Source of the DNA: Rhodovulum robiginosum
GTDB taxonomy: Bacteria; Pseudomonadota; Alphaproteobacteria; Rhodobacterales; Rhodobacteraceae
Assembly (NCBI RefSeq): GCF_003944755.1
Contig: NZ_RWGU01000033.1
Span: forward strand, 1 to 44,709
DNA length: 44,709 nucleotides
Direction of reading: 5' to 3'
Each line of letters starts with the position of its first letter. Position 1 is the first letter of the stretch. The position numbers were made by a program, and so were the translations under genes. Below are positions 2,754 through 17,555 of this stretch, in pieces. Below the pieces are notes generated by a model. That model ran no database searches, was not told the DNA's origin, and saw only the letters and a list, made by a program, of their open reading frames with translations.

Positions 2754-2828
2754 TCCGGCGTAGCTCAGTGGTAGAGCAGTTGACTGTTAATCAATTGGTC
2801 GTAGGTTCGAATCCTACCGCCGGAGCCA
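2754..2828 (+). tRNA. tRNA-Asn (anticodon GTT)
   Basis: A 75-nt tRNA with encoded CCA. The acceptor arm TCCGGCG pairs with CGCCGGA, the anticodon loop is CTGTTAA, and the T-loop is GTTCGAATC. The 3' portion from 2780 is part of the 50-bp attachment-site repeat, so the integrated element left an intact tRNA behind. Confidence 0.97.
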
Positions 2829-2829
2829 A
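2780..2829 (+). repeat. Left attachment site in tRNA-Asn (50-bp direct repeat)
   Basis: This 50-bp segment, running from the anticodon-stem side of tRNA-Asn to one base past CCA, is repeated without mismatch at 17506-17555. Bases on either side differ. It is the expected core duplication left by a tyrosine integrase that targets the 3' end of a tRNA gene. Confidence 0.95.
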
Positions 2830-2850
2830 TCAACCACTTGGTTGTAAAGC

Positions 2851-2881
2851 AAAAATGGCGATCCTCTGGGATCGCCTTTTT
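2851..2881. terminator. Symmetrical intrinsic terminator after tRNA-Asn
   Basis: A perfect 8-bp stem, GGCGATCC with TCTG loop and GGATCGCC, is preceded by five A and followed by five T. It can therefore end transcription in both directions: after the tRNA on the plus strand and after the Beta-family gene on the minus strand. Confidence 0.8.
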
Positions 2882-2885
2882 CGTT

Positions 2886-2907
2886 TTTTGCAACGATTTT
2901 GCAACGA
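2886..2907 (+). repeat. Tandem TTTTGCAACGA repeats, left end
   Basis: Two perfect head-to-tail copies of TTTTGCAACGA lie about 57 bp inside the left attachment site. The same motif recurs as a tandem pair near the right end (17360-17379) and inverted at 17429-17438. Placement at both ends is what integrase arm-type or excisionase binding sites would look like; binding itself is inferred. Confidence 0.6.
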
Positions 2908-3005
2908 GCGCCGATTTCGCACGTTTGTTAATCACTTCGAGACGGACATCCGTTTGCCCTGCGGGATCACAACCAGACCGAAGCCAAGTCATAGGCAAGC
3001 TAGGA

Positions 3006-4118
3006 TTAATACTCGTCGATTTTTTCAAACAGAGAAGCCTGCTCCGCAACCGCAGTCACAGGACCCTCCTCAAACTCTACTCCGGCCATTGCTCCAAGAT
3101 CGCGCAACACACGGGTCATATGATGGGCCATGTTCCACTCCCGCCAAATCGAAGGGTTACCGGGTGAAATGATGCCTTTTGCAGCTTCCCACATGCGGCG
3201 ATCAGCATACGAGTAGGCCTGACCTGCGAAGTCGGGACGATCAATTAGACGGTTCAGCACCTTGGTCATGTTCGGCGATTGCTGGCCCGTCGAGGCACCA
3301 CGAATAACAACGGTTGACTGCGCAGTGGTGTATCGAACGTGGGGAATCGGGCGTCCGCCGCCACCCTTCTTAGGAAACGCGATCTTGCCGCAATCAGCGC
3401 CAAAGTCGCTAAATCCCAACCGATCATTCGGAATAGAGCATTCGGAGAGTAGCCGCTTGTATATCGTCCACTCATACCGAGCGACCTCATAATCGCCGTT
3501 TTCCTCAGCAGGGTTCGTGGTAGGGAAATTGGAGGCTTGGAAGACGACACCGCCCCAAGGCGCTACTGCACCGACCATCTCAAGGCCACCAGCGACCGCC
3601 TCAGCGGCGGACTCCATGCCCAGATCCACGCTGCCTGTGTAGTCGACAAAGATCTCGCAGTCTTGGGCGCTGACGCCCAAAGACTTCAAACCTTCTTCGA
3701 GCGCCTTTGGATCAAAGTCCTCAAATGGCAGATGAATAGCCAGTCTCGGCGTCTGTTGTTGAACCAATTGCCGCCAGATCGGATTGAGAATGTCACAGGC
3801 AGGCGCAACCGCTATAAGGTTTTTGTTCCGCGCCCACGCAACTTGAAACAGGCGGACGAGGCCACCATCACCCAAAGCAGGCAGCACATACTGCGCATCA
3901 AGATAGGCTGGGTAGAGCGGCCAATGTTTGCCAATGCGCTCACCAGAGACATAGGCGATTTCATCCGGTGTCAGGGGTCGGCCCTTCTCAGGGTCACGCT
4001 CCTTGGGCGGCGGAATGATAAAAAACGGCCTCAAATACTTTTGCATGTCGGGCTGCACTTTAGCGCAAGCCAAGTATTCGCCTTGTTTAAATCGCTGTGC
4101 TGGACGATATGGCAGCAT
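3006..4118 (-). CDS. Beta-family protein (Pfam Beta_protein-like)
   Basis: About 370 residues, resembling the phage/mobile-element Beta protein family by its opening YRPAQRFKQGEYLA, the PFFIIPPPKERDP segment, and the late block of VVIRGASTG and WREWNMAHHM. The molecular function of the family is not established. Two ATG codons lie in tandem (4119-4121 and 4116-4118) behind AAGGAG; the second is better spaced and was chosen. Its start lies inside the end of the ImmA gene (about 32-bp overlap), so the two are probably co-translated. Pairs of an ImmA/IrrE peptidase with such a partner recur on mobile elements and resemble toxin-antitoxin-type phage defence (from memory the RosmerTA type); that function is inference here. 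Confidence 0.65.
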   Translation of the reverse strand: MLPYRPAQRFKQGEYLACAKVQPDMQKYLRPFFIIPPPKERDPEKGRPLTPDEIAYVSGERIGKHWPLYPAYLDAQYVLPALGDGGLVRLFQVAWARNKNLIAVAPACDILNPIWRQLVQQQTPRLAIHLPFEDFDPKALEEGLKSLGVSAQDCEIFVDYTGSVDLGMESAAEAVAGGLEMVGAVAPWGGVVFQASNFPTTNPAEENGDYEVARYEWTIYKRLLSECSIPNDRLGFSDFGADCGKIAFPKKGGGGRPIPHVRYTTAQSTVVIRGASTGQQSPNMTKVLNRLIDRPDFAGQAYSYADRRMWEAAKGIISPGNPSIWREWNMAHHMTRVLRDLGAMAGVEFEEGPVTAVAEQASLFEKIDEY

Positions 4119-5424
4119 CATTTTTCTCCTTATCGGGTTGCTCGATCAATTGCTTCCTCACGGTTTTCCCCCCGATTTTTTGAGAGAACAGCGAATAATC
4201 GTTTCTCTCTTTTCTGATCCGACCATAAACAATGGCTGAATGAATTCCGATGTCTTTGGCAAACTTCTCGATTACCTTAGGCGACTTGGCGATGCGAGCA
4301 GGAGAGCGCCGCCAAAGCTCATCTGGTACTAACATATTGGAGGCAAAAGCATCAGCCTGCGCCTCTTGATCGTCAAGGTCTTCTGGTTCCGCCTCGCCTT
4401 CGCGGAACTGATCGAAAAAACCGCCCCGTAACCCAGTCAACCTATGCAAAACAACGTGACCGACTTCGTGCAGCAAGCTGAACCAGAAGTTGCCGATGTC
4501 ATCTCGTCGCAGTGTCAATCCTATTACCGGCACCGAATTGACAATGAACGCAGCGCCGTCGATGGCAAGGCCCTGGATTTGACGTTCGGCCACGAGGACA
4601 ACTCCATTATCGAGCAGCAATTGTTGGGCGCGCTTTGGCCCGTCGCCATGAATGCTAAGCTTAGACAGTTCCCCAAGCCAGCCGGTCTCAGCCGGATTGT
4701 ATCTCGCCACACCTTTCGCAATGATCTCAGCAGCGCGCGTCGCGACCCGCGCGCGCCATGCGTGCAGTAGAATATCTTCGCTGTGATCATTGACGTTGAG
4801 TCCGGTACGCAGCAGCGTCGGACTGCCGAAGTCGATGCGATTTTCGGCAATTAGACGACGCAGCTGATCCTCCGTCATGTCTGCCCCGAACCAGCCGTGA
4901 TCTCGGCCATGTTTCAATATCTTTTTGATGTCCGACTTGGTCACGTTGTCGATGACCATATCCAAACCCCGAAATTGCGGGTCTGGTTCAATTGCTGCGC
5001 TCAGCCGAACCCCCAGAAGCGCTGCGACGCGCGCATAGTTTTTCATGCTAATGCTGTTGTACCGGTCGGCTTCATACCTCTGGACTTGCTGCTCCTTTAG
5101 ACCAAGCCGCCAAGCAAGATCGCGCTGTGAAAATCCCTTAGCGATTCTAGCGACGATGAGCATCAGGCCCGGGTCCCTATCGGCTCGGGTTTCCAAATGA
5201 GCGGGCTTCCCTGTCTCCTTTGCTGCCTCATAGGCTTCAATAGCGTCCGATAAATCAGCCCGCTCAGAGCGCATCGTGGCCGCTACTTGTTTGACAACTT
5301 CCGGTGGCAAGCCCTCAACGACCCGCGATAGCGATCTTTCCGTAGCCAGTGCCTCGTCAAACGCCGCAACACGGGTCCGGGCTTCACGCAGTTCTTTTTC
5401 GTTGAGAATGATGCCTGTATCCAT
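4087..5424 (-). CDS. XRE regulator fused to ImmA/IrrE metallopeptidase
   Basis: 445 residues from the ATG at 5424; longer starts upstream run into the operator and were rejected. A helical N-terminal region of about 80 residues is followed by an XRE-type HTH (IAKGFSQRDLAWRLGLKEQQ, then VQRYEADRYNSIS). The C-terminal half is an ImmA/IrrE zinc peptidase with the HExxH motif in LHEVGHVVLH and a downstream acidic region before ASNMLVPDE. In ImmA systems this peptidase cleaves a cognate repressor or partner; here the HTH and peptidase are in one chain. Two operator-like palindromes lie directly upstream, suggesting autorepression. It overlaps the Beta-family gene. Confidence 0.85.
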   Translation of the reverse strand: MDTGIILNEKELREARTRVAAFDEALATERSLSRVVEGLPPEVVKQVAATMRSERADLSDAIEAYEAAKETGKPAHLETRADRDPGLMLIVARIAKGFSQRDLAWRLGLKEQQVQRYEADRYNSISMKNYARVAALLGVRLSAAIEPDPQFRGLDMVIDNVTKSDIKKILKHGRDHGWFGADMTEDQLRRLIAENRIDFGSPTLLRTGLNVNDHSEDILLHAWRARVATRAAEIIAKGVARYNPAETGWLGELSKLSIHGDGPKRAQQLLLDNGVVLVAERQIQGLAIDGAAFIVNSVPVIGLTLRRDDIGNFWFSLLHEVGHVVLHRLTGLRGGFFDQFREGEAEPEDLDDQEAQADAFASNMLVPDELWRRSPARIAKSPKVIEKFAKDIGIHSAIVYGRIRKERNDYSLFSQKIGGKTVRKQLIEQPDKEKNDAAISSSTAI

Positions 5425-5436
5425 GCCCCCAAAATA

Positions 5437-5480
5437 CCCAACATTTTTGTTGGGGTCAACAGGACACAACAAAAAAGTTG
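5437..5480 (-). promoter_or_regulatory. Paired operator CAAC-N6-GTTG upstream of XRE-ImmA
   Basis: Site 1 is a perfect inverted repeat CCCAACA-TTTT-TGTTGGG (5437-5454) starting 13 bp before the ATG. Site 2 (5467-5480) has the same CAAC-N6-GTTG spacing, 28 bp further upstream. Two like-spaced palindromes before an HTH gene fit cooperative autoregulation. The binding protein is inferred. Confidence 0.6.
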
Positions 5481-5584
5481 CGAAGCCGGCGGGCCGAGCC
5501 TCTGAGGCGGGTTTTGGGCTGGCGGGCGGAGGTGCCCAAAACACGGAGACGCCCATCAGCGCGCGATTTTTCGGGGTCTCTGCG

Positions 5585-5617
5585 CACAAATGAAACGGGC
5601 GGCTCGATAGCCGCCCG
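5585..5617 (-). terminator. Terminator after small gene 5662-5877
   Basis: A 9-bp perfect stem (CGGGCGGCT / AGCCGCCCG) with a 4-nt loop at 5596-5617. On the minus strand it is followed by a T-rich stretch (TTTCATTTGT). Confidence 0.6.
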
Positions 5618-5661
5618 CGTCCCCCAAATGAATGGGACGACAGCTATGTCGCCCCGTTCGA

Positions 5662-5877
5662 TCAGTGATAGTTCGGAGGAATCGTCACACTTCGTTTTCG
5701 TTCAACTTCTGAGCCGACAAGCCGCGTAGTTTGCCATTTGTTGGCATCCGCGGCGCGCAGGTGTTGCACGTCGTCGCCACGATGGACAACGATTTCAGTG
5801 ACACCGTGTTTCGCAAGTGCGTTTGCGAGACGGAGAAGGTCGTTTCGACCGAGTTCCGCAGGATTCAAGATGTTCAT
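5662..5877 (-). CDS. Hypothetical small protein, 71 aa
   Basis: 71 residues beginning MNILNPAELGRNDLLRLANA. The predicted first half is helical and a VTEIVVHRGDDVQHL stretch follows; no family was recognised. A weak AAAGAAAG site precedes the ATG, and a good hairpin terminator follows the stop, which supports a real gene. It lies between the XRE-ImmA unit and a coupled pair of small genes of the element. Confidence 0.5.
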   Translation of the reverse strand: MNILNPAELGRNDLLRLANALAKHGVTEIVVHRGDDVQHLRAADANKWQTTRLVGSEVERKRSVTIPPNYH

Positions 5878-6005
5878 TTTGGTTGCTTTCTTTGTATTGC
5901 GGTTTCAGAGTTGCCGTCTTGGCGGGACCACGAAGCCACAGTCTCAACCGCAAGGCTGGAGCAGTGCGCACGAAGGAAAACTCCAGATCGGCGCGAGGCC
6001 TGAAA

Positions 6006-6031
6006 ACGGGCGACGCTAATCCGCCGCCCGT
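6006..6031 (-). terminator. Terminator after 6039-6389
   Basis: A 10-bp stem (ACGGGCGGCG / CGTCGCCCGT, one G-T pair) with a 6-nt loop, followed on the minus strand by TTTTCA. It lies 8 bp past the stop of the gene above it. Confidence 0.5.
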
Positions 6032-6038
6032 ATTCCTG

Positions 6039-6389
6039 TTACGCTGCTTGCTTTTCCAATTCACGGAAGCTTTGCAACCAACAGCGACGTCGCTGTGCTG
6101 GCAGCACACGAGCAGTGTATCTTCCGCCACCAATTGCGGTGATGACCACCACCCAGTTCGTACTCGCACCTACAATGACCGTCTCAGCCGAGCCGACGTA
6201 GTCCCACGTATCAGTCCGACTCTGCTGGTAGAGACCACCGTCCTTTCGCTTGTGCAGAAAAATCGGGTTTTGGCGCATGACGTCCGTGGCGGCTTCGAGC
6301 AAATTTCGCCCGGCGAGATCACCCTTTGTTTGCGCCTCTTGCATTGCGAACGAGAATTCAGCGGTCAGTTCTTCGCAATAGCCACTCAT
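6039..6389 (-). CDS. Hypothetical element protein, 116 aa
   Basis: The start MSGYCEELTAEF was chosen because its ATG overlaps the upstream stop as ATGA (6386-6389), a clear sign of translational coupling. An amphipathic N-terminal helix (residues 1-45) is followed by a strand-rich part with VETV-type stretches and a basic C-terminus ending SFRELEKQAA. No family was recognised. It forms a two-gene unit with the 61-residue protein upstream and ends at a hairpin terminator. Confidence 0.55.
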   Translation of the reverse strand: MSGYCEELTAEFSFAMQEAQTKGDLAGRNLLEAATDVMRQNPIFLHKRKDGGLYQQSRTDTWDYVGSAETVIVGASTNWVVVITAIGGGRYTARVLPAQRRRCWLQSFRELEKQAA

Positions 6390-6571
6390 GCCGCATCCTC
6401 GTCGCGAATGAGGTGCGAAACGTCGATGGTCCAACGCGTGTCTTGCAGCTTCTCGTCGAATTCGAGACGAAACACTCCAGCAGAAGTTACAACTTCCGCC
6501 TCTATGATCTTGTCGAGCCTGTCGATCTTTTTCAGCGTGGCGATTGCTTCGCCGTCGATGTAGTCTTTCAT
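6386..6571 (-). CDS. Hypothetical small protein, 61 aa
   Basis: Starts at MKDYIDGEAIATL, with GAAAGGA nine bases upstream, a strong ribosome site; longer upstream starts lack one. The 61 residues look like a small beta-rich fold (IIEAEVVTSAG, FRLEFDEKLQ, WTIDVSHLI). No function can be assigned. It overlaps the next gene by 4 bp (ATGA) and is divergent from the gene at 6663. Confidence 0.6.
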   Translation of the reverse strand: MKDYIDGEAIATLKKIDRLDKIIEAEVVTSAGVFRLEFDEKLQDTRWTIDVSHLIRDEDAA

Positions 6572-6662
6572 TGTGGGTTCCTTTCGTGATTTCCACAGAT
6601 CCGCCCTTATTTGGGCCACCATGGCTTCCCACACGCGGACATGAATTTTTGGAGCAGCGGAC

Positions 6663-7142
6663 ATGGGAGAAAACTCCAACTTGGACGAACTCGCAGAGGC
6701 CGCGCGCCTCGAACCCGGCGACGCCAAGAAGGCTTGGCAACTTCTGTCCGCTCACATCGAGGGGGTCGACCTACCAGCTTGGGTGAAAGCCTACGTGCGG
6801 AGGTCCGCCGTCGCTGTGGCCGACTACGACTTGGAGAACGGCGATCAAGCCAAACTCGCTCACGACCTTGGGTTCTACAAAGAGGCCGAGCAGCAAGACG
6901 GTTGGAGCTACGACCTCGACGACGTTTTCGAATGGTTCACCGACCGGATGATGAAGGACGTTACGGACGGAAAGAAGATCAGCATTTCTCGCACCGCCCG
7001 CGAATACCTCGACGAAAACAGAATGTTCAACAATTCCCCTGACGGCGCGCGCAAAGCCTACGAAAAGGCCCGCAAGCGCCATGCGGAACGAATGGCATCC
7101 GAAGCAGAGCTTGAACGGCTGTTGGCCGAAAGGGGCGTTTAG
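6663..7142 (+). CDS. Hypothetical element protein, 159 aa
   Basis: 159 mostly helical, acidic residues, with a C-terminal charged helix (ARKAYEKARKRHAERMASEA). GGAG lies 8 bases before the ATG. It is the only plus-strand gene in the left half of the element and runs convergent to the terminase operon. No family was recognised. It could be a regulator or a helper-phage-directed factor, but the sequence shows neither. Confidence 0.6.
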   Translation: MGENSNLDELAEAARLEPGDAKKAWQLLSAHIEGVDLPAWVKAYVRRSAVAVADYDLENGDQAKLAHDLGFYKEAEQQDGWSYDLDDVFEWFTDRMMKDVTDGKKISISRTAREYLDENRMFNNSPDGARKAYEKARKRHAERMASEAELERLLAERGV

Positions 7143-7299
7143 ACGTTCAGCGCGTCAGAGAACGCGGTTTCCGGCGCTGCCCCACGCTGACACCGCACGA
7201 CACCGAGTTGCCGCAGAGAGCCGCGAAAATCCGCGGTCTCTCGTCGATCTCAAGGCACATCGACCCAAGTGGATTTGGCGAGCGCAACGAGAGACGCGT

Positions 7300-8037
7300 T
7301 CACCACCACCCGCGAAGGGTCTGCTGCACAGCGAGGCCCGCTTGCAGGTATTGCGAGGCAAACCCGCCGAGGATCAGTGCGATGCCCAAGTCGCCGTGTC
7401 CCCCAACACTCCGACTCTGGCTGATGATCTGGTTGCCCGCCGCCGTTGTCGTCGTTGCGAAGGAAGCCAGGTCGGCCTCGATCTCGTCGCGCAGCGGCAA
7501 TTCGGGCGCGAATTTGAGGTCGCCCGAGGCAAACAGCACGGCGAGGTTTTCGATCATGAAGGTCTTGCCCGCATTGACATAGCGCGACCCCTTCTTCGAC
7601 CAATCCTGCCCGCCCGTCATCTGCACCGCCTTGTGATCGACGCCTTGGTCCCACAGCATGTCCGACACCACGCGCCCGATGGACGTGCCGTCGATGGCGA
7701 GTTCAGACTTTCCGCCAAACGGCGGCGCGTTGCGCAGGCGCACGAGGTGATCCACAACATCGACATATGACACGCCACGGAAGCGGTCGGCGTAGACCAC
7801 GGTGCGCTCACGCGGGCCGACGATGATCTTGCCGTCGTCCACGATGGGCAACGCCTGATCCTTGATCACGACGACCGCCGAGAAGTCATTTGCCTGCCCG
7901 AGGTCAGCGGCCACCCAATAGCGTTGGTAGCCCGAGATGCGCGGGATAGCGGGGTCTTGGTTGGTCTCGTTCACCACCTCGCCGTCAGGCAGATAGACGA
8001 GGTTCAATTCGGGTTCGTAGTTCAGAGTTTCGGACAT
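7300..8037 (-). CDS. Terminase large subunit, nuclease half (separate gene)
   Basis: 245 residues corresponding to the RNase H-like nuclease domain of a phage large terminase. Catalytic acidic positions are visible: D45 in VAADLGQANDFSAVVV, D116 in ELAIDGTSIGR and D216 in GGHGDLGIAL. The ATG at 8037 overlaps the end of the ATPase gene by 16 bp in another frame. Together the two products (260 + 245) equal the usual length of one terminase, so this is a gene split between motor and nuclease. The nuclease would cut concatemeric DNA during headful or cos packaging. Either a real fission with translational coupling or a frameshifted gene is possible. Both halves keep all key motifs. Confidence 0.85.
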   Translation of the reverse strand: MSETLNYEPELNLVYLPDGEVVNETNQDPAIPRISGYQRYWVAADLGQANDFSAVVVIKDQALPIVDDGKIIVGPRERTVVYADRFRGVSYVDVVDHLVRLRNAPPFGGKSELAIDGTSIGRVVSDMLWDQGVDHKAVQMTGGQDWSKKGSRYVNAGKTFMIENLAVLFASGDLKFAPELPLRDEIEADLASFATTTTAAGNQIISQSRSVGGHGDLGIALILGGFASQYLQAGLAVQQTLRGWW

Positions 8038-8804
8038 ATCGCAACCTCCGTGGTGCTTGTCGCTTGTTCGATGATGGAAAGGTCGAAATACGCCTGACCA
8101 TCGGCCAGCATTTCGACTTCGATTTCTTGGCGGAATTTGGTCGCGGAGAGCGTGCGGCGCATTCGTTCGACCTTTTCAGCGAGCCTCGGAATGTCCGTGC
8201 CACGCACGACAATGCGGTGAATGCCGTCGCCCGGTTTCGCGTCGAGGAACAGCCGCGCGAAATAGTTGTTCTTGCCTGCGGGCGTGCTGCTGAAAAACAC
8301 CTGCCCGTCTTTGGTCAGCATCGGCAGGACACCAGCAATCAGGTCTTCGCCGCCGTTCTCGCCCGCGAGGAAGGCGCACTCGTCGATCACGGCGAGGCTC
8401 ACGCTGGGGTAGCCCCTAATGGTGTCTGACGTGGACGGCAGCGCGACGACACGCGCCCCGTTCGACATTTCGAGTTCGGTCAAGGTCGAACGCGTGATGA
8501 CCAAGTCGGTGCGGCGGAGCTGCTGCCCGATCTCGCGGGCGATGATCTTCGCCTGCCGCTCGGCGGGTGCAACGCAGATGGTCAGGCTGTCGGGGACGTG
8601 CAGTTCCTCGACGGCACGCGCGGCAAGCACCGACGTTTTGCCCGCCTGACGGCCCACACGCAGCGCAATCTCGGACGCCTGCGTGGTGAACGCCTCGACC
8701 TGCCAAGGATCAGGCGCGTGACCGATCCAATGGCTCAGGCGCGCGACGGGATCGAGGTCACGTTCGAGGCCCACGCACCAGTCATGAAGGGCGTCAAACG
8801 GCAT
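8022..8804 (-). CDS. Terminase large subunit, ATPase half (separate gene)
   Basis: 260 residues from the ATG at 8804 (MPFDALHDW); the longer in-frame start would overlap the upstream zinc-protein gene too far. Walker A GRQAGKT at 51-57, Walker B LAVIDE at 137-142, and coupling motif FFSSTPAGKNN at 170-180 identify the packaging motor ATPase. The protein stops soon after FDLSIIEQA, where a normal terminase would continue into the nuclease domain, which here is the next gene. It overlaps its upstream neighbour by 11 bp and its downstream neighbour by 16 bp. Confidence 0.88.
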   Translation of the reverse strand: MPFDALHDWCVGLERDLDPVARLSHWIGHAPDPWQVEAFTTQASEIALRVGRQAGKTSVLAARAVEELHVPDSLTICVAPAERQAKIIAREIGQQLRRTDLVITRSTLTELEMSNGARVVALPSTSDTIRGYPSVSLAVIDECAFLAGENGGEDLIAGVLPMLTKDGQVFFSSTPAGKNNYFARLFLDAKPGDGIHRIVVRGTDIPRLAEKVERMRRTLSATKFRQEIEVEMLADGQAYFDLSIIEQATSTTEVAICPKL

Positions 8805-9048
8805 TCTTCTGTCGCTCGTAGTAGGCGCGCATGTTGGCGACGCTGCACTGGGTGCAGTTCCGATTTCCGTCGCGCGGCGAGACATGGCCGTTTTTGCAGG
8901 GGATGCCCGTGAAGTAGAGCTTGCCGCCCTCGTCGAACATCACATCGCGGCTTTGCGGCAGGCGCGCCCAATCGGGCGATCCGGCTTCCGTGGCGGCGGC
9001 AACGCGGCGGCTGTATTCTTCGAAGCCTTCGAAATCGCGGTGGGTCAT
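8794..9048 (-). CDS. Small zinc-binding (HNH-like) protein beside terminase
   Basis: 84 residues with a C-terminal PCKNGHVSPRDGNRNCTQC arrangement: a CxxGH pair followed by CxxC, as in small phage HNH/zinc-ribbon proteins. HNH proteins next to terminases are a known feature of phage packaging modules and can be needed for DNA cleavage by the terminase. A complete HNH nuclease motif is not evident here, so nuclease activity is uncertain. The start overlaps the TerS-like stop as ATGA (9045-9048), and the end overlaps the terminase ATPase gene by 11 bp. Confidence 0.65.
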   Translation of the reverse strand: MTHRDFEGFEEYSRRVAAATEAGSPDWARLPQSRDVMFDEGGKLYFTGIPCKNGHVSPRDGNRNCTQCSVANMRAYYERQKNAV

Positions 9049-9632: not shown

Positions 9633-9634
9633 TT

Positions 9635-10601: not shown

Positions 10602-10628
10602 TGCGGTATCCTTTCATGTCACAACCAA

Positions 10629-10660
10629 AAACGGACACAGGCGGAGGCCCATGTCCGTTT
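10629..10660 (-). terminator. Terminator between 10707-11117 and the packaging operon
   Basis: A 9-bp perfect stem AAACGGACA / TGTCCGTTT with a 14-nt loop. On the minus strand the right arm continues into TTGGTT, giving five T in a row. Confidence 0.65.
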
Positions 10661-10706
10661 CTCTGATTGGACATGACGAGACCACCGATCCGTCACAGGC
10701 AATGTA

Positions 10707-11117: not shown

Positions 11118-11389
11118 CAGGCTCGCAGTTGGGCGACCACGGAGGTGATATGCTGCCACGGGATAGGGAACGAGTGTGGGTGAACTTCGACGGTCACGCC
11201 CTCGGGCTGCACCAATACATTGTAGCCGTCGCGGTAGATGTTGCCCTGATCGGGTTCGAGCGTCGATTTGAGGTCGTCAGCAAAGGCGGCAGCATCGGGC
11301 ACACCGAGGTTCGACGTGGTGTTCATGCGGGTGTAGGTGAGGTTGACGGCTTCGTGCTCGTCGATTGTTGCGGTAATGGTCATTGTCAT
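11117..11389 (-). CDS. Hypothetical small protein, 90 aa
   Basis: 90 residues from MTMTITATIDEHEAVNLTY, with AAAGGAC directly before the ATG; the longer frame upstream has no ribosome site. It looks like a small, strand-rich, acidic domain (YNVLVQPEGVTVEVHPHSF). No function can be assigned. It shares the TGATG junction with the downstream gene and is divergent from the phosphoribosyltransferase gene across about 240 bp. Confidence 0.55.
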   Translation of the reverse strand: MTMTITATIDEHEAVNLTYTRMNTTSNLGVPDAAAFADDLKSTLEPDQGNIYRDGYNVLVQPEGVTVEVHPHSFPIPWQHITSVVAQLRA

Positions 11390-11632: not shown

Positions 11633-12223
11633 ATGAAAGCAAATTTGAGAAAGATCGAAGGGAACTGGGACATTGGATACGCGCTCGACAAGCACATGCT
11701 CTACAGCAATTTCCTCGGGCACAATGAAGCGGGTTATCCGATGTTCGACAACCACCGAACAGAAGCAGGTGAGGCCGTCTATCAGCTGAAGTACCGCTCA
11801 GATTGGGATCAGGTTGAGCCATTGGCGGACGCCATCGTAGAACACATCGCGCCCAAGCTTGGCCCAATCGGGCTGGTCATCCCTGTACCCGCCTCAATAA
11901 CAAGGGCGCGCCAACCTGTCTACGAGGTGGCCGCAGCGGTAGCGAAGCGGATCAAGGTTGAATCCTTCGAAGGCATCATCTGCAAGACTGCGGCAGCGAA
12001 CGGCACTGTGGCGCTCAAGAACCTTGGCACCAAGGATGAAAAGGTTGCCGCGCTCGAAGGCAGGTTTATTATTGAGGACACCATCACGAACGAAGGGTGC
12101 TGGAACGCCTTGGTGGTGGATGACCTATTTGACTCAGGGGCTTCGATGGAGGCTGTGTGCGCCTCGCTTCGAACCTACCGCAAGATCGACAAAATCTACG
12201 TCGCAACGTTAACATGGAAATAA
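11633..12223 (+). CDS. ComF-like phosphoribosyltransferase
   Basis: 196 residues with a type I phosphoribosyltransferase fold: a hood segment with YQLKYRSDW, the substrate-side loop VIPVPASITRARQP, and the PRPP-binding loop LVVDDLFDSGAS (hhhhDDxxxSG, about residues 164-175). It resembles ComF-type enzymes but lacks an N-terminal zinc finger and begins with a GNWDIGYALDKH segment. Base composition is visibly less GC-rich than in the packaging operon. The next gene starts one base after its stop and encodes a SLOG-like nucleotide-binding protein, so the two probably act together, perhaps on a nucleotide or nucleotide-derived signal. A defence role is inference. Confidence 0.8.
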   Translation: MKANLRKIEGNWDIGYALDKHMLYSNFLGHNEAGYPMFDNHRTEAGEAVYQLKYRSDWDQVEPLADAIVEHIAPKLGPIGLVIPVPASITRARQPVYEVAAAVAKRIKVESFEGIICKTAAANGTVALKNLGTKDEKVAALEGRFIIEDTITNEGCWNALVVDDLFDSGASMEAVCASLRTYRKIDKIYVATLTWK

Positions 12224-12224
12224 G

Positions 12225-12782
12225 ATGGCCAAGGTATTCATAGCAGGCTCTATCAAGATTAAGCGGCTCGACCCGAAGTTCATCGAACGCATTCGAAACA
12301 TAGTGGCCGATGATCTTGAAGTGGTTGTCGGCGATGCAAACGGTGCGGACACTTCCATTCAGAGCGAATTGCGGAGTCAGTTTGCCGAGAACGTAACCGT
12401 CTATTGCTCGGGTAACGAACCTCGGAATAACGTCGGTGGATGGAAGGTCAAACTCATTCATTCCTCCGCAGAACCGGGTACGCGGGCGTTCTTCACAGCC
12501 AAAGACAAGGCTATGGCGGCAGATGCTGATTACGGCTTAATGCTATGGGACGCCGCAAGTGCTGGAACGCTAAGCAACGTCATTGAATTGATCAAAGACG
12601 GGAAGAAGTGCGTTGTTTTCGTGAACAAGATCAAGTCTTTCGTGAACGTAAAAGAGCCCAGTGATTTGAATAATTTGGTTTCGGTTATGTCCAGCGGCGC
12701 AAGGAACCAAGCAGAGAGGAAAATCGGCTTGAGCCGTATGCTTTCTGAAGTCATCAATCCGCAACTTGGATTACCGATCTAA
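12225..12782 (+). CDS. SLOG-like (YpsA/DprA-related) nucleotide-binding protein
   Basis: 185 residues. The N-terminal half looks like a SLOG Rossmann-type domain: first strand KVFIAGSIKI and then VVVGDANGADTSIQ, where the GDANGAD loop is characteristic of YspA/YpsA-like SLOG proteins. A second conserved block is AADADYGLMLWDAASAGTLS, with CVVFVNK following. SLOG proteins bind or process nucleotides and are frequent in conflict systems. The gene is one base downstream of the phosphoribosyltransferase and shares its lower GC. No membrane or nuclease domain follows, so if it is a sensor, the effector is not obvious. Confidence 0.7.
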   Translation: MAKVFIAGSIKIKRLDPKFIERIRNIVADDLEVVVGDANGADTSIQSELRSQFAENVTVYCSGNEPRNNVGGWKVKLIHSSAEPGTRAFFTAKDKAMAADADYGLMLWDAASAGTLSNVIELIKDGKKCVVFVNKIKSFVNVKEPSDLNNLVSVMSSGARNQAERKIGLSRMLSEVINPQLGLPI

Positions 12783-13246
12783 ATTTTCGTGGCCGTTATC
12801 CAGTTATGTCAACCTTGCTGACCGGTTTTCGCCCAGATTTCCGTCGCCGTTGCAAAGCGCGTTGCAAGAGGCTGCGCCAAAACGGCTAACCGATTGACTG
12901 CGCAGCCAGTTTTTGACCAAAATACTTGATTAACAATCAATCGGTCTGTTTTCAGACACGTAGTTGCGACTGTCTCGCAACAATCAGGTGGAGATAGCGG
13001 GAGGAGGTAACCAGCCAAATCGCGAGGGCAATGCCGCCTCTGCACGGTTGCACGGTTGAACCGTGATTTTCGAAACTAATGGAATTTTTAGTTGGTTGGT
13101 TGTGTCCACCCCCGCCATACAAACAACCAACCAATGGCGTTACAGAGTTTGATAACCGACCGCGCGACCGTGCAACCGTGCAGCACGCCGAAAAATGGGC
13201 GAAGCGCGCACTCGCACCCCGCCCATCAATACCAAGTCGAACAAAC
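12783..13246. other. Gene-free 464 bp with repeats, candidate replication origin
   Basis: No convincing gene on either strand. The right half holds nested inverted repeats and iteron-like GCACGGTT units, described separately. The left part contains CGTTGCAA-type motifs (around 12848-12869) related to the repeats at the element ends, and an AT-rich stretch around 12920-12950. It lies between the SLOG gene and the 3' end of the primase-helicase gene. Confidence 0.55.
13041..13182. repeat. Nested inverted repeats and iterons (putative ori)
   Basis: The outer arms are a perfect 16-bp inverted repeat (13041-13056 and 13167-13182), each made of two tandem TGCACGGT-type units; a related TGAACCGTG follows at 13057. 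The inner arms are a perfect 12-bp inverted repeat, TTGGTTGGTTGT (13092-13103) and its complement (13123-13134). The two pairs share nearly the same centre (about 13112). Repeated binding units around a palindrome next to a primase-helicase gene resemble the iteron origins of P4-like satellites. Origin function is inferred. Confidence 0.6.
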
Positions 13247-15652
13247 TCAGAATGCCGACTTCTGACTTGCCATCTCGATCACAGCGTCAATCGCTTCCTG
13301 ACTGCTGTCATCCCACTCAAAGATGAATGTCCTGCGTGGGCCTCTCTCGACCCGAACACCGTGTTGCTTGAGCATTGGAATTGCGCGCTCCACACGGCTA
13401 CCCATGCCTTTCGGCGAGCGAGGCACATCATCGCGGGCGACCGTCAAATGCCCGACTTCGATTTGCTCCTGCATCGACTCCCAAAGCTGCTTCGAGTTTG
13501 CCTCCCAACGCCGATCACCGACACCCGAGGACGCAATCTGCCGCGTCAGGAATTCGAAAACGCTGTCCGAGTGTTCGAGGTCGGCCATTTCTTCCGCGCT
13601 TTTCTCGGCCATGCGTTCGACGAACCAACCATCGGGTCGCCCCAAGTGGCGCGCGATCACTTCGCCCACACGGCAGAAAGTCGCGAAGCGTGACCCGCTA
13701 TACTCGATCTGATCCGCCTCGTTGATACAAAGCACAACGAGGTCAAGCAGTGCGCCTGTGAACCTTGCGCGCTTCTCCTTCAACATGCTCTCGAACTGCA
13801 TATCGTTGAGATATTCGTCAGGACGATGCAGCCTGATCCGCACGATGCGCTCGGACAAATCGGCCGCGTAGAACGTCGGATCAATGCCCGCGATGATGAT
13901 GGGGCGTTTTGCCGACATGGAGACGCTTTCGAAGTCGGTATACAGCTTGCGCTTCCGAATGCCGCCGCCTGTTGATAGGCGACACAACGGATCGCTGATT
14001 TTCGCGATGGACGAGAAATTGTCGCCCGATACCGTTCCCGCGTTGTATGCGGCAGCGAACAGATCATCCTCGCTCTTTGGTTCGCCTGCCTGCGCGCCAA
14101 CCTTCGGATCAATCGTTTCGATGATCGTCCGCAAAGCCGATGACTTGCCCGAACCCGCAGGGCCATCGAGAAGCGCGATAGGGCACGCCTGCCCAGGGAA
14201 ATACATCGCCGTGACCATCCATGCGAGCAGGAACGGCATTTCCTCGTCGCCCACGTTCAGGAAGTCACAGAGTTCCGATAGCTCACCCTTTTGGGGGACA
14301 GGCATGGGCAGGCAATCGCCACGACGGAACACCACTGGCGGATCATCGACCACGCGCCATCCCGCAGCGTCGATCTCGACGACCTGACACAGGTCATCCG
14401 CAAGGAACACGTACCGAGATGCACCAGCTTGGGCAAAGCGCAGCCAAACCGCCTCTCTGTCGGTCTGCGAGGCGAGGGCGTCTGCGTAGTTGACCACCGA
14501 GTTCAATGTCGTGTCGTCAGGCGTCAGCCCTTTGTCGTTGAACAGACCGAGCGTGACGTGGTGTTTGAACGCGGTCGAACGGATGGGCATGAAGTTGCGG
14601 TCGCCAATCTGCGCGTATCCCACGCCTACCTCGTCACGAAGCAAGCGCACGTCGTCGAGAAACGAAAGGGCGGTGAGCTTGCGCGATTCCGTCTTGTTGT
14701 AGGGTGTGCCGCCTGTGTAGCCGCTCTCCTTGGCATACAGCCAAAACGTGATGGGCGAAAATTGCGACGTGCCCGTGTTGAACCACTTCTGCTCGTCTCC
14801 ACGCTTGTAGGCGTCGGCTGTCTTGGACCATTCCGTCCACCGTTTGCGCGCCCAATCAGATCGTGGACCGTCTTTGCGTTCGAATGCAGCGATCAGGCAC
14901 AAGGCAGCTGCGCCCCATTGATCGTATGTTTCCACATCGTAGCGCGAGATGAAGGCGTCGAAAGCGGCATCGTAGTCGATCCCCGTTTCTTTCGACTTCG
15001 GGCCTGACTTTTGCTGCTTCGCAAACTCAATTTTGAGTTCGTCACCATCGACCAAGTGAGCGAAACCATTTTCGTCTACGCCATCGACCCGCAGTGCGCG
15101 CGACTTGCGAGAAAGTGGTAGAGCGACGTTGTAGTGGTCTTTCTGCCCCTTTGGGAAGATTTCGATCTGATGGTTGTCGCTGTCCGCAAACAAGCCTTTT
15201 GTGCCGACCGTGAATGCCTCGTTCGGCCAAACGGTTTGCAGGATCGTTGTCGCCGTTTCGAGAATCTTCTTTCCCGAATTGATGATCTGATCGGATGAAA
15301 ACTCGCGTTCGAAGACGACCCACAGATGGACGCCGCGACCACCGCCTGACCGGACAGCGAAGAACGGAATTTTGTGCGCGACGAGCGCGCCCGCGATTGC
15401 GCCTGACCGCGAACCAATGATTGCGGGGTCCAACTTTCCGTCGTGGTCATCAATGTCGAAGATGAGGAAGCGGCTTTTCCGCTCCGCGCTCGCAATGTTC
15501 ATGCCAAGCGGGGTATCGCCTGATAAATGCGCGTCGATCATCTCGTCTGTGATCTTGCCCTCGCGCATCGAATAGCCATTCGTTCCGCGATAGAGCCAAT
15601 AGTCGGGGCCACCGTAGCCAACCAACTCTTTCAATGCTGATTTGTTGTCCAT
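13247..15652 (-). CDS. AEP primase-helicase (replication protein)
   Basis: 801 residues from the ATG at 15652; a GTG at 15679 is an alternative and neither has a good ribosome site. The N-terminal archaeo-eukaryotic primase domain has the metal motif FDIDDHDG (D66, D68, D69) and SGGGRGVHLWV (about 102-112). The C-terminal part is a P-loop ATPase of the phage/plasmid helicase type with Walker A LLDGPAGSGKSSA, a sensor-like region IIIAGIDPTF, and an arginine-containing ERIVRIRLHRP. It would initiate and unwind at the element's own origin, probably the repeat region just past its 3' end. Length and order match replicases of satellites and integrative plasmids. Confidence 0.88.
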   Translation of the reverse strand: MDNKSALKELVGYGGPDYWLYRGTNGYSMREGKITDEMIDAHLSGDTPLGMNIASAERKSRFLIFDIDDHDGKLDPAIIGSRSGAIAGALVAHKIPFFAVRSGGGRGVHLWVVFEREFSSDQIINSGKKILETATTILQTVWPNEAFTVGTKGLFADSDNHQIEIFPKGQKDHYNVALPLSRKSRALRVDGVDENGFAHLVDGDELKIEFAKQQKSGPKSKETGIDYDAAFDAFISRYDVETYDQWGAAALCLIAAFERKDGPRSDWARKRWTEWSKTADAYKRGDEQKWFNTGTSQFSPITFWLYAKESGYTGGTPYNKTESRKLTALSFLDDVRLLRDEVGVGYAQIGDRNFMPIRSTAFKHHVTLGLFNDKGLTPDDTTLNSVVNYADALASQTDREAVWLRFAQAGASRYVFLADDLCQVVEIDAAGWRVVDDPPVVFRRGDCLPMPVPQKGELSELCDFLNVGDEEMPFLLAWMVTAMYFPGQACPIALLDGPAGSGKSSALRTIIETIDPKVGAQAGEPKSEDDLFAAAYNAGTVSGDNFSSIAKISDPLCRLSTGGGIRKRKLYTDFESVSMSAKRPIIIAGIDPTFYAADLSERIVRIRLHRPDEYLNDMQFESMLKEKRARFTGALLDLVVLCINEADQIEYSGSRFATFCRVGEVIARHLGRPDGWFVERMAEKSAEEMADLEHSDSVFEFLTRQIASSGVGDRRWEANSKQLWESMQEQIEVGHLTVARDDVPRSPKGMGSRVERAIPMLKQHGVRVERGPRRTFIFEWDDSSQEAIDAVIEMASQKSAF

Positions 15653-15758
15653 ACCATTTTCAGGATGGACCCGCTTCACCGGTTCAGCGTCGCCAAGTCA
15701 GCGTGTATAACCGACTTATTCCCAATTTCGTGACGACGCTGATCCAGTGGGGCGGGCC

Positions 15759-16004
15759 TTATGCCTGCCCCACTTCTTTTTGCTTCGCCCATGCCATCAC
15801 GGCGTCGAGATCGTAGCGAACGGTGCGCTCGCTCCAATAGATCGCGGGCGGGCTGTCGCCTGCGCGCTTCCACTCGTAGAACTGGCGTTCCGAGATTTGC
15901 AGGAAGTCGCACACCTGACGAGGCGTCATAAGTTTTGGGGTAGTGATCTGGGTTTCCAGATCTTCGATACGGCGCTCAAGCGCACGGATTTCATCTGTGG
16001 ACAT
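15759..16004 (-). CDS. AlpA-like HTH protein (putative excisionase)
   Basis: 81 residues: a short coiled-coil start (EIRALERRIEDLETQI) and a winged-helix MerR/AlpA-type motif, MTPRQVCDFLQISERQFYEW followed by GDSPPAIYWSERTVRYDLDAV. AlpA/Xis-like proteins bend attachment-site DNA for excision or activate the integrase. GAAAGGA precedes the ATG. It lies between the integrase and the primase, the usual place for such a factor. A plain repressor or activator role is the alternative. Confidence 0.75.
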   Translation of the reverse strand: MSTDEIRALERRIEDLETQITTPKLMTPRQVCDFLQISERQFYEWKRAGDSPPAIYWSERTVRYDLDAVMAWAKQKEVGQA

Positions 16005-16187
16005 TGCAACAGAGTCCTTTCGTCATGTCCTAATCAGACAGACGCCCTCTGTTGCTACGCGACACTGCGGGCCTTCATCTACCAAGCCGCTTGTGTCGCC
16101 GCGCGCTCGGGATGCTGTGCACCGCCAGAATGGCGCGCGTCTCACGACGGGCATAGGTGCGCTGCAAACATGGTGCGCTTTCGCGCA

Positions 16188-17345
16188 TCATTCAAGGCTG
16201 AAATCAGGTTCTACCTTAATCCGCTCGAAGTAGACTTTCTCAATGTCCTCGACGGCGCGGCGATTGCCCATGCGCTTGAGGTATTTCATGAGCATGTCGC
16301 TGCCCTCGCCCGCCTTCTTGTCGCCGCGCAGGAAATGGGCGACGTAGTCGGGCAAAAACGCCTCGGCTGACGCCTGCATGAAGTGACGCCTACCGTCGTG
16401 AGGCAGAAATACACGAACGCGTTCTCCGTCGATCTCTGCGAACGTGCCCTTGGGGTCCGTGATGTATCCGGTGGCCGACGACGCCGGGAACACCCACTCG
16501 CTGCCCGACTGACGGATTGCCTTGAGCAATTCGATCACCGTGTCCATGACGGGCAGCGTGCGCGCGAGCTTGTTTTTCATCTTGGTCAGGTGGATCGTCT
16601 TGTTCTGTAGATCGACCTGATCCCACGACAGCGAGCAGACGTTTTCTGACCTGATGCCCGTCAGGAACATGACAGCGACCGCCGTGCCGACAATGATGTT
16701 CTGCTCCCGCCGCGCCATGATCGCCTCCCAGATCACCGACCAGTCGTCCGCGTCGAGGTCGTGCGCCCGCGCAACCGCCGTCCACTGCGCCTCTGTCTCG
16801 TCGCTCTTAGCGACGCGTGTCTTCTTCTGCCCGACGGGGTTCACCACCGGGGCGAAGTTGAAGGCGTTCCCGATCCCGATGCGCACGGCCCGCGCTGTTG
16901 CCTTCTTGCCGTCTGCCATGAGGCGGTTGAGGACGGCCTGCACGTCTGCCGAGGTCACGTCCGCGACGTTGCTGTCCATGATCTCCTTCGCGTGCATCTC
17001 AAGCTGGCGCGTCATGCGCTCACGGTGGGCGTCGGACATGCCGCCTTGTGCCTGCGACGTGTCGCACCAGAAGCGCCAGCCGTCGCGAACCGTCTGAATG
17101 TCGCTCTTGGCAACCCCTGTCTTGGTGTCGCCCTGTTTAAACGCGGTGGTCGCGTCCATCGCCGGGAAGCCGCCGATCTTGATCGACTTCGTTTTCCCAT
17201 CGACGCGGCGCTTGATGTACCAAGTGCTCTTGGTCTTGCCGACGTTCAGGTAGAGGCCCGGAAAGCGGTCGCCGTCGTGGCGATACATTCCCGGAGGCGT
17301 TTTCATCAGGCGCGCGGGCTTGGTGAAGTCGATTGCGGTGGTCAT
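16188..17345 (-). CDS. int: Tyrosine integrase
   Basis: 385 residues from MTTAIDFTKPARL, with GGAG eight bases before the ATG. It has an N-terminal DUF4102-like arm-binding region (MYRHDGDRFPGLYLNVGKTK, WYIKRRVDG), a core-binding domain, and a catalytic domain with Arg in FLTGIRSENVCSL, the HDGRRHF (HxxR) box, a second His in VAHFLRG and the nucleophile Tyr in MLMKYLKR. Its start is 160 bp from the right attachment site, and the upstream stretch has TTTTGCAACG repeats. It is the enzyme expected to have inserted the element into tRNA-Asn. Confidence 0.95.
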   Translation of the reverse strand: MTTAIDFTKPARLMKTPPGMYRHDGDRFPGLYLNVGKTKSTWYIKRRVDGKTKSIKIGGFPAMDATTAFKQGDTKTGVAKSDIQTVRDGWRFWCDTSQAQGGMSDAHRERMTRQLEMHAKEIMDSNVADVTSADVQAVLNRLMADGKKATARAVRIGIGNAFNFAPVVNPVGQKKTRVAKSDETEAQWTAVARAHDLDADDWSVIWEAIMARREQNIIVGTAVAVMFLTGIRSENVCSLSWDQVDLQNKTIHLTKMKNKLARTLPVMDTVIELLKAIRQSGSEWVFPASSATGYITDPKGTFAEIDGERVRVFLPHDGRRHFMQASAEAFLPDYVAHFLRGDKKAGEGSDMLMKYLKRMGNRRAVEDIEKVYFERIKVEPDFSLE

Positions 17346-17359
17346 CTGTCTCGCTCCAT

Positions 17360-17379
17360 TTTTGCAACGTTTTGCAACG
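17360..17379 (+). repeat. Tandem TTTTGCAACG repeats, right end
   Basis: Two head-to-tail TTTTGCAACG copies lie just upstream of the integrase start, matching the pair at the left end (2886-2907). Confidence 0.6.
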
Positions 17380-17428
17380 CGCAATGTCACTAAGACGCAT
17401 TATGGCGCACTGTCAACCGATTGATTAT

Positions 17429-17438
17429 CGTTGCAAAA
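17429..17438 (-). repeat. Inverted TTTTGCAACG copy near right end
   Basis: CGTTGCAAAA is the reverse complement of the end-repeat unit, placed between the tandem pair and the attachment site. Confidence 0.5.
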
Positions 17439-17505
17439 TAGGTGCAAACACTTGTTTTTACTGACGAACCGCATCACCACGCACCAAGTGAATAAATATC
17501 GTCGC

Positions 17506-17555
17506 TTGACTGTTAATCAATTGGTCGTAGGTTCGAATCCTACCGCCGGAGCCAA
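17506..17555 (+). repeat. Right attachment site (50-bp direct repeat)
   Basis: Identical to 2780-2829. It carries only the 3' part of tRNA-Asn, has no 5' half and is not a functional tRNA. It marks the right end of the element. Confidence 0.95.

Follow-up and report, generated by a model that had tools for sequence, protein, structure and literature searches.

A tRNA-Asn-bounded element of Rhodovulum robiginosum with a two-gene large terminase and a scaffold-like protein: a probable PICI-like phage satellite

The element at tRNA-Asn and its gene content

The window, the whole stretch of 44,709 nucleotides analysed here (contig NZ_RWGU01000033.1 of Rhodovulum robiginosum), contains an element of ~14.7 kb that was confirmed to carry an integrase, an AlpA-like HTH regulator, an AEP primase-helicase, terminase genes and defence cargo. 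A repeat search of the window found a perfect direct repeat of 50 bp on the forward strand, with one att copy at the tRNA (2780-2829) and the other at the integrase end (17506-17555); the start-to-start distance of 14,726 bp bears out the boundaries given in an earlier, sequence-only reading of this DNA. When extended, the repeat reaches 58 nt at 95% identity. The left copy overlaps the 3' part of the tRNA-Asn (gtt) gene that serves as attachment site (2754-2828, forward strand, ARAGORN). GC content per 1 kb is 0.50-0.63 in the element compared with 0.62-0.74 in the flanks, and the right flank sits elsewhere in genomes of the same genus. The same tRNA-Asn is occupied in same-genus genomes by other, different elements, to be set beside the PICI criterion of an att site that prophages do not use.

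The genes described below lie on the reverse strand unless stated otherwise, and counts of elements refer to a family set of 53 scored loci, of which 34 are att-bounded elements (582 ORFs). Profile matches agree with the integrase, AlpA and primase-helicase read earlier from the sequence: the tyrosine integrase (16188-17390) matches phrog_1 with 1.6e-31 and Pfam with 8.8e-13, the AlpA/excisionase-like regulator (15759-16004) matches HTH_17 with 1.1e-7, and the primase-helicase (13247-15679) matches Pfam AEP-TOTE with 1.1e-10. The match of the regulator to Phage_AlpA (0.0047) stays under the cut-off of that Pfam model. The non-coding stretch at 12783-13246 shows inverted and iterated repeats and is a candidate origin only.

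The left part of the element holds cargo. By their matches, the genes at 3006-5589 are a PD-Lambda-2-like defence pair, composed of a C-like gene of the Beta_protein family (3006-4121; Pfam PF14350 2.2e-44, PADLOC 1e-19) and a B-like gene for an HTH + M78 (ImmA/IrrE-type) protein (4087-5589; PADLOC 2.5e-57, Pfam HTH_3 and Peptidase_M78), whose true start is probably inside the ORF. PADLOC gave no model match to PD-Lambda-2 A among the 15 ORFs scanned. The small cargo-side ORF at 5662-5877 (71 aa) has no PADLOC match and a look-alike, spotted by eye, in the related locus L111. ORF calling further yields genes with no assigned function at 6039-6389 (116 aa), 6386-6571 (61 aa) and, on the forward strand, 6663-7142 (159 aa). 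The last was considered as TerS on a weak phrog_57 match (0.013) and rejected, being on the opposite strand, outside the packaging block and present in only 5 of the 34 elements. A forward-strand accessory pair consists of a phosphoribosyltransferase-like gene resembling the C-terminal part of PsyrT (11633-12223; PADLOC 4.3e-9) and its partner (12225-12782; phrog_289, annotated as GTP-binding domain, 3.7e-7). For the small, correct-frame ORFs 15759-16004 and 6386-6571 the scan was with Pfam alone. In a PHROGs scan of 83 non-core ORFs of the family, DNA methyltransferases and a restriction family stand at the top among the matches listed, which cover 25 of the 94 families, nine of them unnamed.

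Terminase genes and the scaffold-like protein

A TerS/TerL operon had been proposed for this element. Its TerL stood, albeit as two overlapping ORFs; the TerS-like gene is the one at 9045-9632, and the genes at 5662-7142 are small and cargo-side. The ATPase half of TerL (8022-8804) matches phrog_7579 (1.2e-33) and, scored on the ORF extending to 8885, Pfam Terminase_6N (9.2e-11); the alignment shows GRQAGKT and IDE, which we take to be Walker A-type and Walker B-type motifs, respectively. The nuclease half, a gene of its own at 7300-8037, matches phrog_27743 (5.4e-28), and its residues D45, D51, D116 and D216 are invariant in an alignment of 20 sequences. The profiles of both halves match one single TerL ORF in the Thermus phage Riverbug (1.5e-56 and 1.5e-6). 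TerL is present as two ORFs in all 34 att-bounded elements, unlike in the relative L049, where it is undivided. Purifying selection acts on each of the two TerL genes, with a dN/dS per gene of 0.03-0.17 in 13 pairs, many of them with dS near or above 1. In viral contigs, patterns of the near-clade TerL nuclease were confirmed in 0 of 106 stretches, and a scan with a single nuclease sequence led to three contigs of 4-5.5 kb.

The TerS-like gene, directly upstream of TerL, is predicted to encode an N-terminal HTH and long helices. Its HMM matches an unnamed gene upstream of TerL in Riverbug (3.1e-16); the annotation of that phage assigns "TerS" to another gene. The predicted model (pLDDT 74, pTM 0.41) gave no Foldseek match at E < 0.001, with the phage protein phBC6A51 (2ao9), presumably a TerS, among the weak matches, and PHROGs yielded weak matches only, including a tape-measure family (0.0073). 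Position, architecture and the HMM match are the whole basis on which we term the gene TerS-like. The gene at 8794-9048 encodes a small Cys/His protein that is weakly endonuclease VII/HNH-like (phrog_1081, without function, 6.2e-7; endonuclease VII 0.036).

The genes at 9635-11389 had been suspected of hiding divergent head proteins. They encode 129, 195, 136 and 90 aa, all too small for a coat or portal protein, but the second of them, at 10014-10601, appears to be scaffold-related. The first (9635-10024, 15/34 elements) and the conserved genes at 10707-11117 (27/34; a 73-aa ORF of phage contig L073 matches the family with 4e-14) and 11117-11389 (27/34) have no assigned function. The scaffold-like protein ("cc") combines a coiled coil with a motif found in the C-terminal tail of the scaffolding proteins of R5C-type phages. 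In a search space of 3,744 ORFs from 46 phage or IMG/VR loci, its family HMM matched best R5C gp50 (1.2e-13; reversed control 0.51), which is annotated as head scaffolding protein and matches phrog_206 (head scaffolding) with 7.9e-51. The match spans mainly ~32 residues, and in the clade of this element the motif is internal rather than C-terminal. All seven tail-matching phage ORFs lie 73-540 bp upstream of a coat gene; these coats form one lineage, whereas the seven matches may represent no more than two or three. The HMM also matched L080 and L107, there over the coiled coil only, and six other Rhodobacteraceae phrog_206 loci gave no significant tail match (6 of 8 loci tested). The predicted model (pTM 0.39) found nothing in BFVD at 0.001 with Foldseek. 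On the basis of the tail match we regard the family as homologous to the scaffold tails.

A family of constrained length in Rhodobacteraceae

The same gene plan recurs in many Rhodobacteraceae, and therefore the element is not a stray deletion. The search for the same gene order elsewhere, recommended with the sequence-only reading, returned tRNA-bounded relatives of 13-16 kb, integrated across the family at six tRNA types. Carriers include Ruegeria faecimaris DSM 28009 (L112, att-bounded, 14,755 bp) and Rhodobacter capsulatus DSM 1710 (L114, without located ends). The relatives are thus not all full prophages, an outcome that would have spoken against a satellite. Integrase, TerS-like gene, TerL ATPase and TerL nuclease are each found in 34 of 34 elements, the AlpA-like and the scaffold-like gene in 33 each. 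Some copies are damaged: the TerS-like gene is interrupted in L031, the nuclease is split in two in L143, and L040, L041 and L120 are fragmentary.

Among the window ORFs, PHROGs and Pfam gave no match to portal, coat or lysis families, and the sole tail entry is the weak tape-measure match of the TerS-like gene. Five phage coats searched against the ORFs of the 53 loci found no significant relative (best phmmer E 0.046); as positive control, the R5C coat matches 18 phage ORFs. No hidden portal or coat was thus found in this element, and apart from the integrase, the replication genes and the portal (eight elements) the family has no conserved gene of the size of a coat. The earlier statement that a portal is lacking holds within the clade of this element and fails for the family at large: 8 of the 34 elements carry a DUF4055 portal (phrog_145 3.5e-57 to 3e-119 in three tested elements), a feature of the sister clade. 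On a midpoint-rooted tree, to be read with a long-branch warning, the portal distribution needs two changes. In the genome of the element itself, a search without positive control found no DUF4055 portal, and the single PF05065 coat match lies on another contig (C46). A GTA was considered as helper on the ground of its particle capacity. The phrog_206 scaffold occurs in 0 of 22 TerL-bearing genomes and in 8 of 394 overall, too rare to judge co-residence.

The length of the 34 att-bounded elements, out of 53 loci, is 14,544 ± 697 bp. This near-constancy arises from mutual compensation between core and cargo length (n = 34, r = −0.78, permutation p = 5e-5). The correlation is −0.65 within replication type, −0.88 in a set thinned to <75% TerL-nuclease identity (n = 13) and −0.43 in AEP-type elements alone (p = 0.08). 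Such compensation is what one would expect from a packaging limit.

Comparison with known satellites and proposed life cycle

The element is an integrated mobile element with packaging functions and an incomplete virion gene set, as is characteristic of phage satellites. It resembles Gram-negative, AlpA-type PICIs as described in PMC6092414 in its integrase, AlpA-like regulator, primase with origin (here a repeat-rich gap), packaging-side genes, accessory genes, size of ~15 kb and the absence of coat and lysis genes. However, PICIs in that description have no structural genes and at most TerS, whereas this element also encodes its own TerL ATPase and nuclease and a scaffold-like protein, and its sister clade a portal. 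Capsid-forming PICIs (cfPICIs) and MulchRoom/MiniFlayer have their own TerS and TerL (PMC10690885), comparable with the TerS-like and TerL genes here, but they also encode coat, portal and connectors or adapters. In the window element we recognised no coat, protease, portal or connector; of the cfPICI set TerS/TerL/HNH, TerL is present, TerS is suggested by position and HMM, and the HNH-like match is weak. PICMIs share integrase, AlpA and primase; by the description in PMC10803314, however, they lack packaging and shell genes, and these ~6-kb elements lie beside fis, in contrast to 14.7 kb at tRNA-Asn with TerL. P4 relies on the P2 terminase (PMC10690885), unlike this element with its own TerL; no Sid family was found among the PHROGs and Pfam matches. 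The helper's shell is re-sized by Sid in P4 and by TcaP in PLE (PMC10945586); both are external scaffolds, and for the protein at 10014-10601 re-sizing is a prediction.

Among phages, the R5C-type ones come closest: R5C and R26L of Dinoroseobacter and Pan1 of Pseudanabaena, with R5C and Pan1 being Nanhaivirus in their records. The R5C scaffold ends with the shared motif, the R26L and Pan1 scaffolds belong to its family (73% and 66%), and the portal of these phages is 39-43% identical to that of the sister clade. R5C and Pan1 have a coat and a one-piece TerL only distantly related to that of the element. In SaPI1, TerL and portal come from the helper. The small SaPI1 protein CpmB shares a C-terminal coat-binding motif with the scaffold of its helper (PMC5644958), to which we liken the protein at 10014-10601 by description.

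We consider it probable that the element is a PICI-like phage satellite that provides a terminase and a scaffold mimic itself and depends on a helper for coat and tail. The earlier proposal of a satellite that encodes a terminase is supported, and the two-gene TerL, the scaffold-like protein and the constrained size extend it. A satellite of this kind could also use the protein at 10014-10601 as a packaging-site or motor accessory and pack its concatemer into full-size helper heads. Concatemer packaging is described for PICMIs (PMC10803314), the tail match covers a short stretch and the fold search came back empty, yet in seven of seven tail matches the motif forms the end of a scaffold whose gene immediately precedes a coat gene, and the coiled coil with tail is scaffold-like anatomy, so we hold this alternative to be unlikely. 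The defence-rich cargo, with the PD-Lambda-2-like pair here and methyltransferases and a restriction family leading the cargo matches listed, would suit a domesticated anti-phage device whose terminase and scaffold-like parts poison the packaging of incoming phages while the element itself is not transferred; retention of integrase, AlpA-like gene and att repeats, the six tRNA types and the constrained length leave little probability for it.

We attach slight weight to a complete small virus whose coat has diverged past recognition. Many small genes lack an assigned function and the Firmicutes contig L146 has the same split TerL plus a coat, but neither the five coats nor the survey of coat-sized genes revealed a candidate in the family. 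A prophage remnant that lost its structural genes, to which the broken copies in other genomes might point, we reject as scarcely credible given the recurrent plan in 34 att-bounded elements, the purifying selection on both TerL genes and the constant length; PHROGs and Pfam recognised no coat, portal or lysis gene of a prophage here, and for tail genes there is one weak tape-measure match.

For the probable satellite we infer the following cycle, in which induction, particle formation and packaging, coat binding and the identity of the helper are deduced from sequence. An infecting helper phage would probably induce the element via the AlpA-like regulator, leading to excision at tRNA-Asn and replication from the putative origin by the AEP primase-helicase. 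The element would then package itself, with DNA recognition by the TerS-like protein and TerL acting as separate ATPase and nuclease. The shell would be assembled from the helper's coat protein, to which the protein at 10014-10601 may bind through the motif also present at the end of the helper's scaffold; it would probably re-size the shell to one ~14.5-kb genome, or else a fixed fraction of the head would be filled. Coat, tail and lysis, and for this clade also the portal, would be provided by the helper, while the sister clade has its own portal. As helpers we predict phages whose scaffold and coat are of the R5C (Nanhaivirus) type.

More tentatively, and with slightly less than an even chance of being right, we speculate that such satellites hijack assembly from inside: they would supply the whole packaging side themselves (TerS-like protein, two-gene TerL, scaffold mimic and, in one clade, portal), steal only coat and tail, and tune their genome length to the scaffold's shell. 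If this is true, elements with both portal and terminase and those with the terminase only would be intermediates that link capsid-forming satellites with PICIs. In the literature compared, as far as those descriptions go, a satellite either relies on the TerL of its helper or makes a shell of its own; a widespread family with a motor and scaffold mimic but without a coat would fill this gap. The scaffold tail predicts helpers, and the origin of shell hijacking would become testable. For the mechanism of the motor, a TerL whose ATPase and nuclease are separate proteins is of interest because translocation is separated from cutting. Finally, these elements carry defence genes among many Rhodobacteraceae.

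The window element and its two-gene terminase

The 14.7-kb window element is best read as a phage satellite with a PICI-like plan that carries its own two-gene large terminase (TerL) and a scaffold-like protein, and it belongs to an element family of constrained size. Its att repeats at 2780-2829 and 17506-17555 are identical across 50 bp (58 nt at 95%), start 14,726 bp apart and overlap the 3' portion of tRNA-Asn. Per kilobase, GC content is 0.50-0.63 within the element versus 0.62-0.74 outside it. PHROGs, Pfam, PADLOC and codon scoring identified an integrase, an AlpA-like HTH protein, an AEP primase-helicase, an accessory pair, a small-gene block, the terminase and a PD-Lambda-2-like defence pair. 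A phosphoribosyltransferase-like gene and its partner (11633-12782) are PsyrT-like, and the family of each is present in three elements.

The TerL nuclease (7300-8037) and ATPase (8022-8804) are encoded by separate, overlapping ORFs, and the ATPase is single-copy in the Rhodovulum robiginosum genome. Walker-type residues are conserved in the ATPase (alignment A2, 21 sequences) and the nuclease aspartates in the other half (alignment A1, 20 sequences). In Thermus phage Riverbug, both family profiles match the same TerL, a one-piece protein annotated as one gene (1.5e-56 and 1.5e-6). The ATPase half matched 646 phage records, every one below 60% identity, and the nuclease half none among 50,697. 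ATPase matches (E <=1e-10) occurred in 22 of 394 Rhodobacteraceae genomes, with 25 of 26 match places being open frames of <=340 aa; the sole exception (L049 in genome G144) is a 502-aa frame with an undivided TerL. The nuclease profile matched 6 of 385 genomes of the class, including that of R. robiginosum itself; among these loci, L063 is a full family member, L064 a far member with two nuclease-like ORFs and L065 a nuclease piece only.

Split TerL was also found in Nitrobacter (L144), two Firmicutes contigs, three IMG/VR contigs (among them L067 with a coat and L068 with a connector) and on Salinibacter plasmids, and is therefore not limited to the satellite family. On the Firmicutes contigs, which are perhaps capsid-forming elements, the split TerL lies at L146:7384-10595 and L145:6388-7828; in L146 its neighbours are a gene for a major head protein and another that is weakly scaffold-like. 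The Salinibacter ruber plasmids pSR11 (L160, 11.2 kb) and pSR14 (L161, 14.9 kb), which combine split TerL with primase and ParA, are possibly packaged plasmids; the largest gene of pSR11 has tape-measure-like matches. The IMG/VR contig L028, with two TerS-like genes and a TerL ATPase that is 98% identical but truncated, is a recombined or decayed copy.

The gene preceding TerL (9045-9632) is TerS-like. Its model shows an HTH and long helices, and in both Riverbug (3.1e-16) and Meiothermus MMP17 (1.5e-11) its profile matches the gene that immediately precedes TerL. A Foldseek search with the model found no match at E 0.001; 2ao9, a phage protein, was only a weak hit.

Gene content and length of the element family

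Stretches of <=20 kb were fetched around 24 match places; scanning genome contigs yielded 39 loci (36 near, 3 far), the near ones mostly titled as Rhodobacteraceae genera except L119 (Proteobacteria), L120 (Alphaproteobacteria) and L122 (Anderseniella). With L108, L109, L115, L120, L127, L131, L136, L139 and L140 left out beforehand as duplicates or fragments, 53 loci were scored. A direct repeat of at least 20 bp between tRNA and integrase side was present in 36, and the 17 loci without one are outside the size count. Exclusion of L042 (TerL nuclease not inside) and L049 (integrase not inside, 20-bp repeat) left 34 att-bounded elements with 582 ORFs. The family uses tRNA-Asn, -Thr, -Gly, -Ala, -Lys and -Arg sites.

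All 34 encode integrase, TerS-like protein, TerL ATPase and TerL nuclease, counting L031 (interrupted TerS-like gene) and L143 (nuclease in two pieces). AlpA-like and scaffold-like genes are each present in 33, the 10707 and 11117 families each in 27, the 9635 family in 15 and a portal in 8. In L031:9331-11101, ~1.1 kb with an opposite-strand 273-aa ORF is inserted in the TerS-like gene. Besides integrase and replication genes, no further coat-size family is common to at least 8 of the 34 elements. Among 83 non-core ORFs of at least 170 aa, the best 25 of 94 PHROGs families included nine unnamed ones besides DNA methyltransferases, restriction, helicases and a regulator. Five related-phage coats matched nothing significantly among the ORFs of the 53 loci (best E 0.046), and the R5C gp51 coat, as positive control, matched 18 phage ORFs.

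Element length is 14,544 +/- 697 bp (13,061-15,950, n = 34). Two parts of the element, one running from the integrase-side att as far as the TerL end (sd 1,112 bp) and the other from that point to the tRNA (sd 821 bp), compensate each other (r = -0.78, p = 5e-8), the total sd of 697 comparing with 1,383 if the parts were independent; the fetched flank bounded each part separately, which could narrow ranges and should not create compensation. The compensation was reached in 0 of 20,000 permutations (p = 5e-5) and persisted within replication types (r = -0.65, p = 3e-5; for the 17 AEP-type elements by themselves r = -0.43, p = 0.08) and after thinning to 13 elements (r = -0.88). Later cases of 15,220 and 14,233 bp are consistent with this size.

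At G295:C12:260000-297900, two elements (L051 and L033; 15,220 and 14,333 bp) lie with facing integrase ends between two oppositely oriented tRNA-Asn genes, and a Roseovarius chromosome (L138/L111) carries two in tandem. Same-genus genomes (L163, L165, L166) contain different elements at the same tRNA-Asn, with 12.3-16.7 kb between repeats and no TerL match.

Twelve loci of the distant group carry a 450-aa gene, flanked by members of the 11117 and 10707 families, that encodes a portal (in the three tested, phrog_145 at 3.5e-57 to 3e-119, and DUF4055), nearest to those of phages Pan1, R5C and R26L (39-43%). Besides the portal, such elements encode a TerS-like protein, a split TerL and a scaffold-like protein, and no coat gene was recognised in them. 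Plasmid pSC52_1 (L162) and the same tRNA-Asn of same-genus genome G784 (L164, 14,233 bp) hold further portal-type elements. On the ATPase tree, the groups with and without a portal require two changes; L045 falls in the portal group yet lacks a portal.

The scaffold-like protein and the predicted helper

The sequence-only reading had allowed for divergent head proteins at 9635-11389, and the gene at 10014-10601 resembles a phage scaffold. Searched against 3,744 ORFs of 46 loci, its family profile matched R5C gp50, annotated as head scaffolding protein, at 1.2e-13; profiles restricted to the near or the far clade reached 1.6e-9 and 4.5e-10, respectively. With reversed sequences as control, the best E values were 0.015 (far profile) and 0.51 (all), and 0.053 for a near-clade profile in a separate search. 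The match is mostly confined to the final ~32 residues of the phage scaffold. In the conserved motif of the family, A90, A103 and G107 are invariant and R91, D92, Y96 and A99 at least 90% conserved (alignment A7). The protein also has a coiled coil, spanning 62 residues in the model (pLDDT 85, pTM 0.39); Foldseek in BFVD found no fold match for the model at E 0.001.

The phrog_206 head scaffolding family includes R5C gp50 (7.9e-51) and L072 7520-8305 (1.3e-44), the latter followed by a major head protein gene (1.1e-72). Seven ORFs match the tail (R5C, L072, L073, L074, L075, L076 and L106; perhaps two or three lineages), those of L074 and L106 being long or open frames with uncertain starts. 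Each of the seven precedes, by 73-540 bp, a coat gene whose product shares 50-100% identity with the R5C or L072 coat. In L080 and L107 the match is restricted to the coiled coil. There are eight other Rhodobacteraceae phrog_206 loci; the six that were tested all gave no significant match (best 0.014), so the scaffold tail seems tied to one coat lineage. On IMG/VR contigs L074 and L075, genes for a terminase-like protein, a DUF4055 portal, a protein with the scaffold motif and an R5C-like coat follow one another, with tail-like genes after them.

dN/dS was 0.03-0.17 for both TerL ATPase and nuclease (13 pairs each), 0.04-0.24 for the TerS-like and 0.06-0.44 for the scaffold-like gene (11 unsaturated of 13 pairs each), and up to 0.79 for the 9635, 10707 and 11117 families, which are under looser constraint; dS was near or above 1 for many pairs.

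Searches of open-licence papers, where absence is weak evidence, brought up no description of such a family; they covered terminase-bearing satellites, satellites of Rhodobacter/Roseobacter, split terminases, VEIMEs, tycheposons and the redirection of capsids by scaffolds. SaPI1 CpmB (PMC5644958) is the known parallel to the scaffold-like protein. The R. robiginosum genome contains one PF05065 coat, located away from the window element; a search without positive control found no DUF4055 portal match there, and no helper was found within this genome. A protein of AH14a, the helper phage in PMC4936722, belongs to the R5C scaffold family (38%). We infer that the window element would form particles and re-size the shell of a helper, which is predicted to be an infecting phage with an R5C-type coat.
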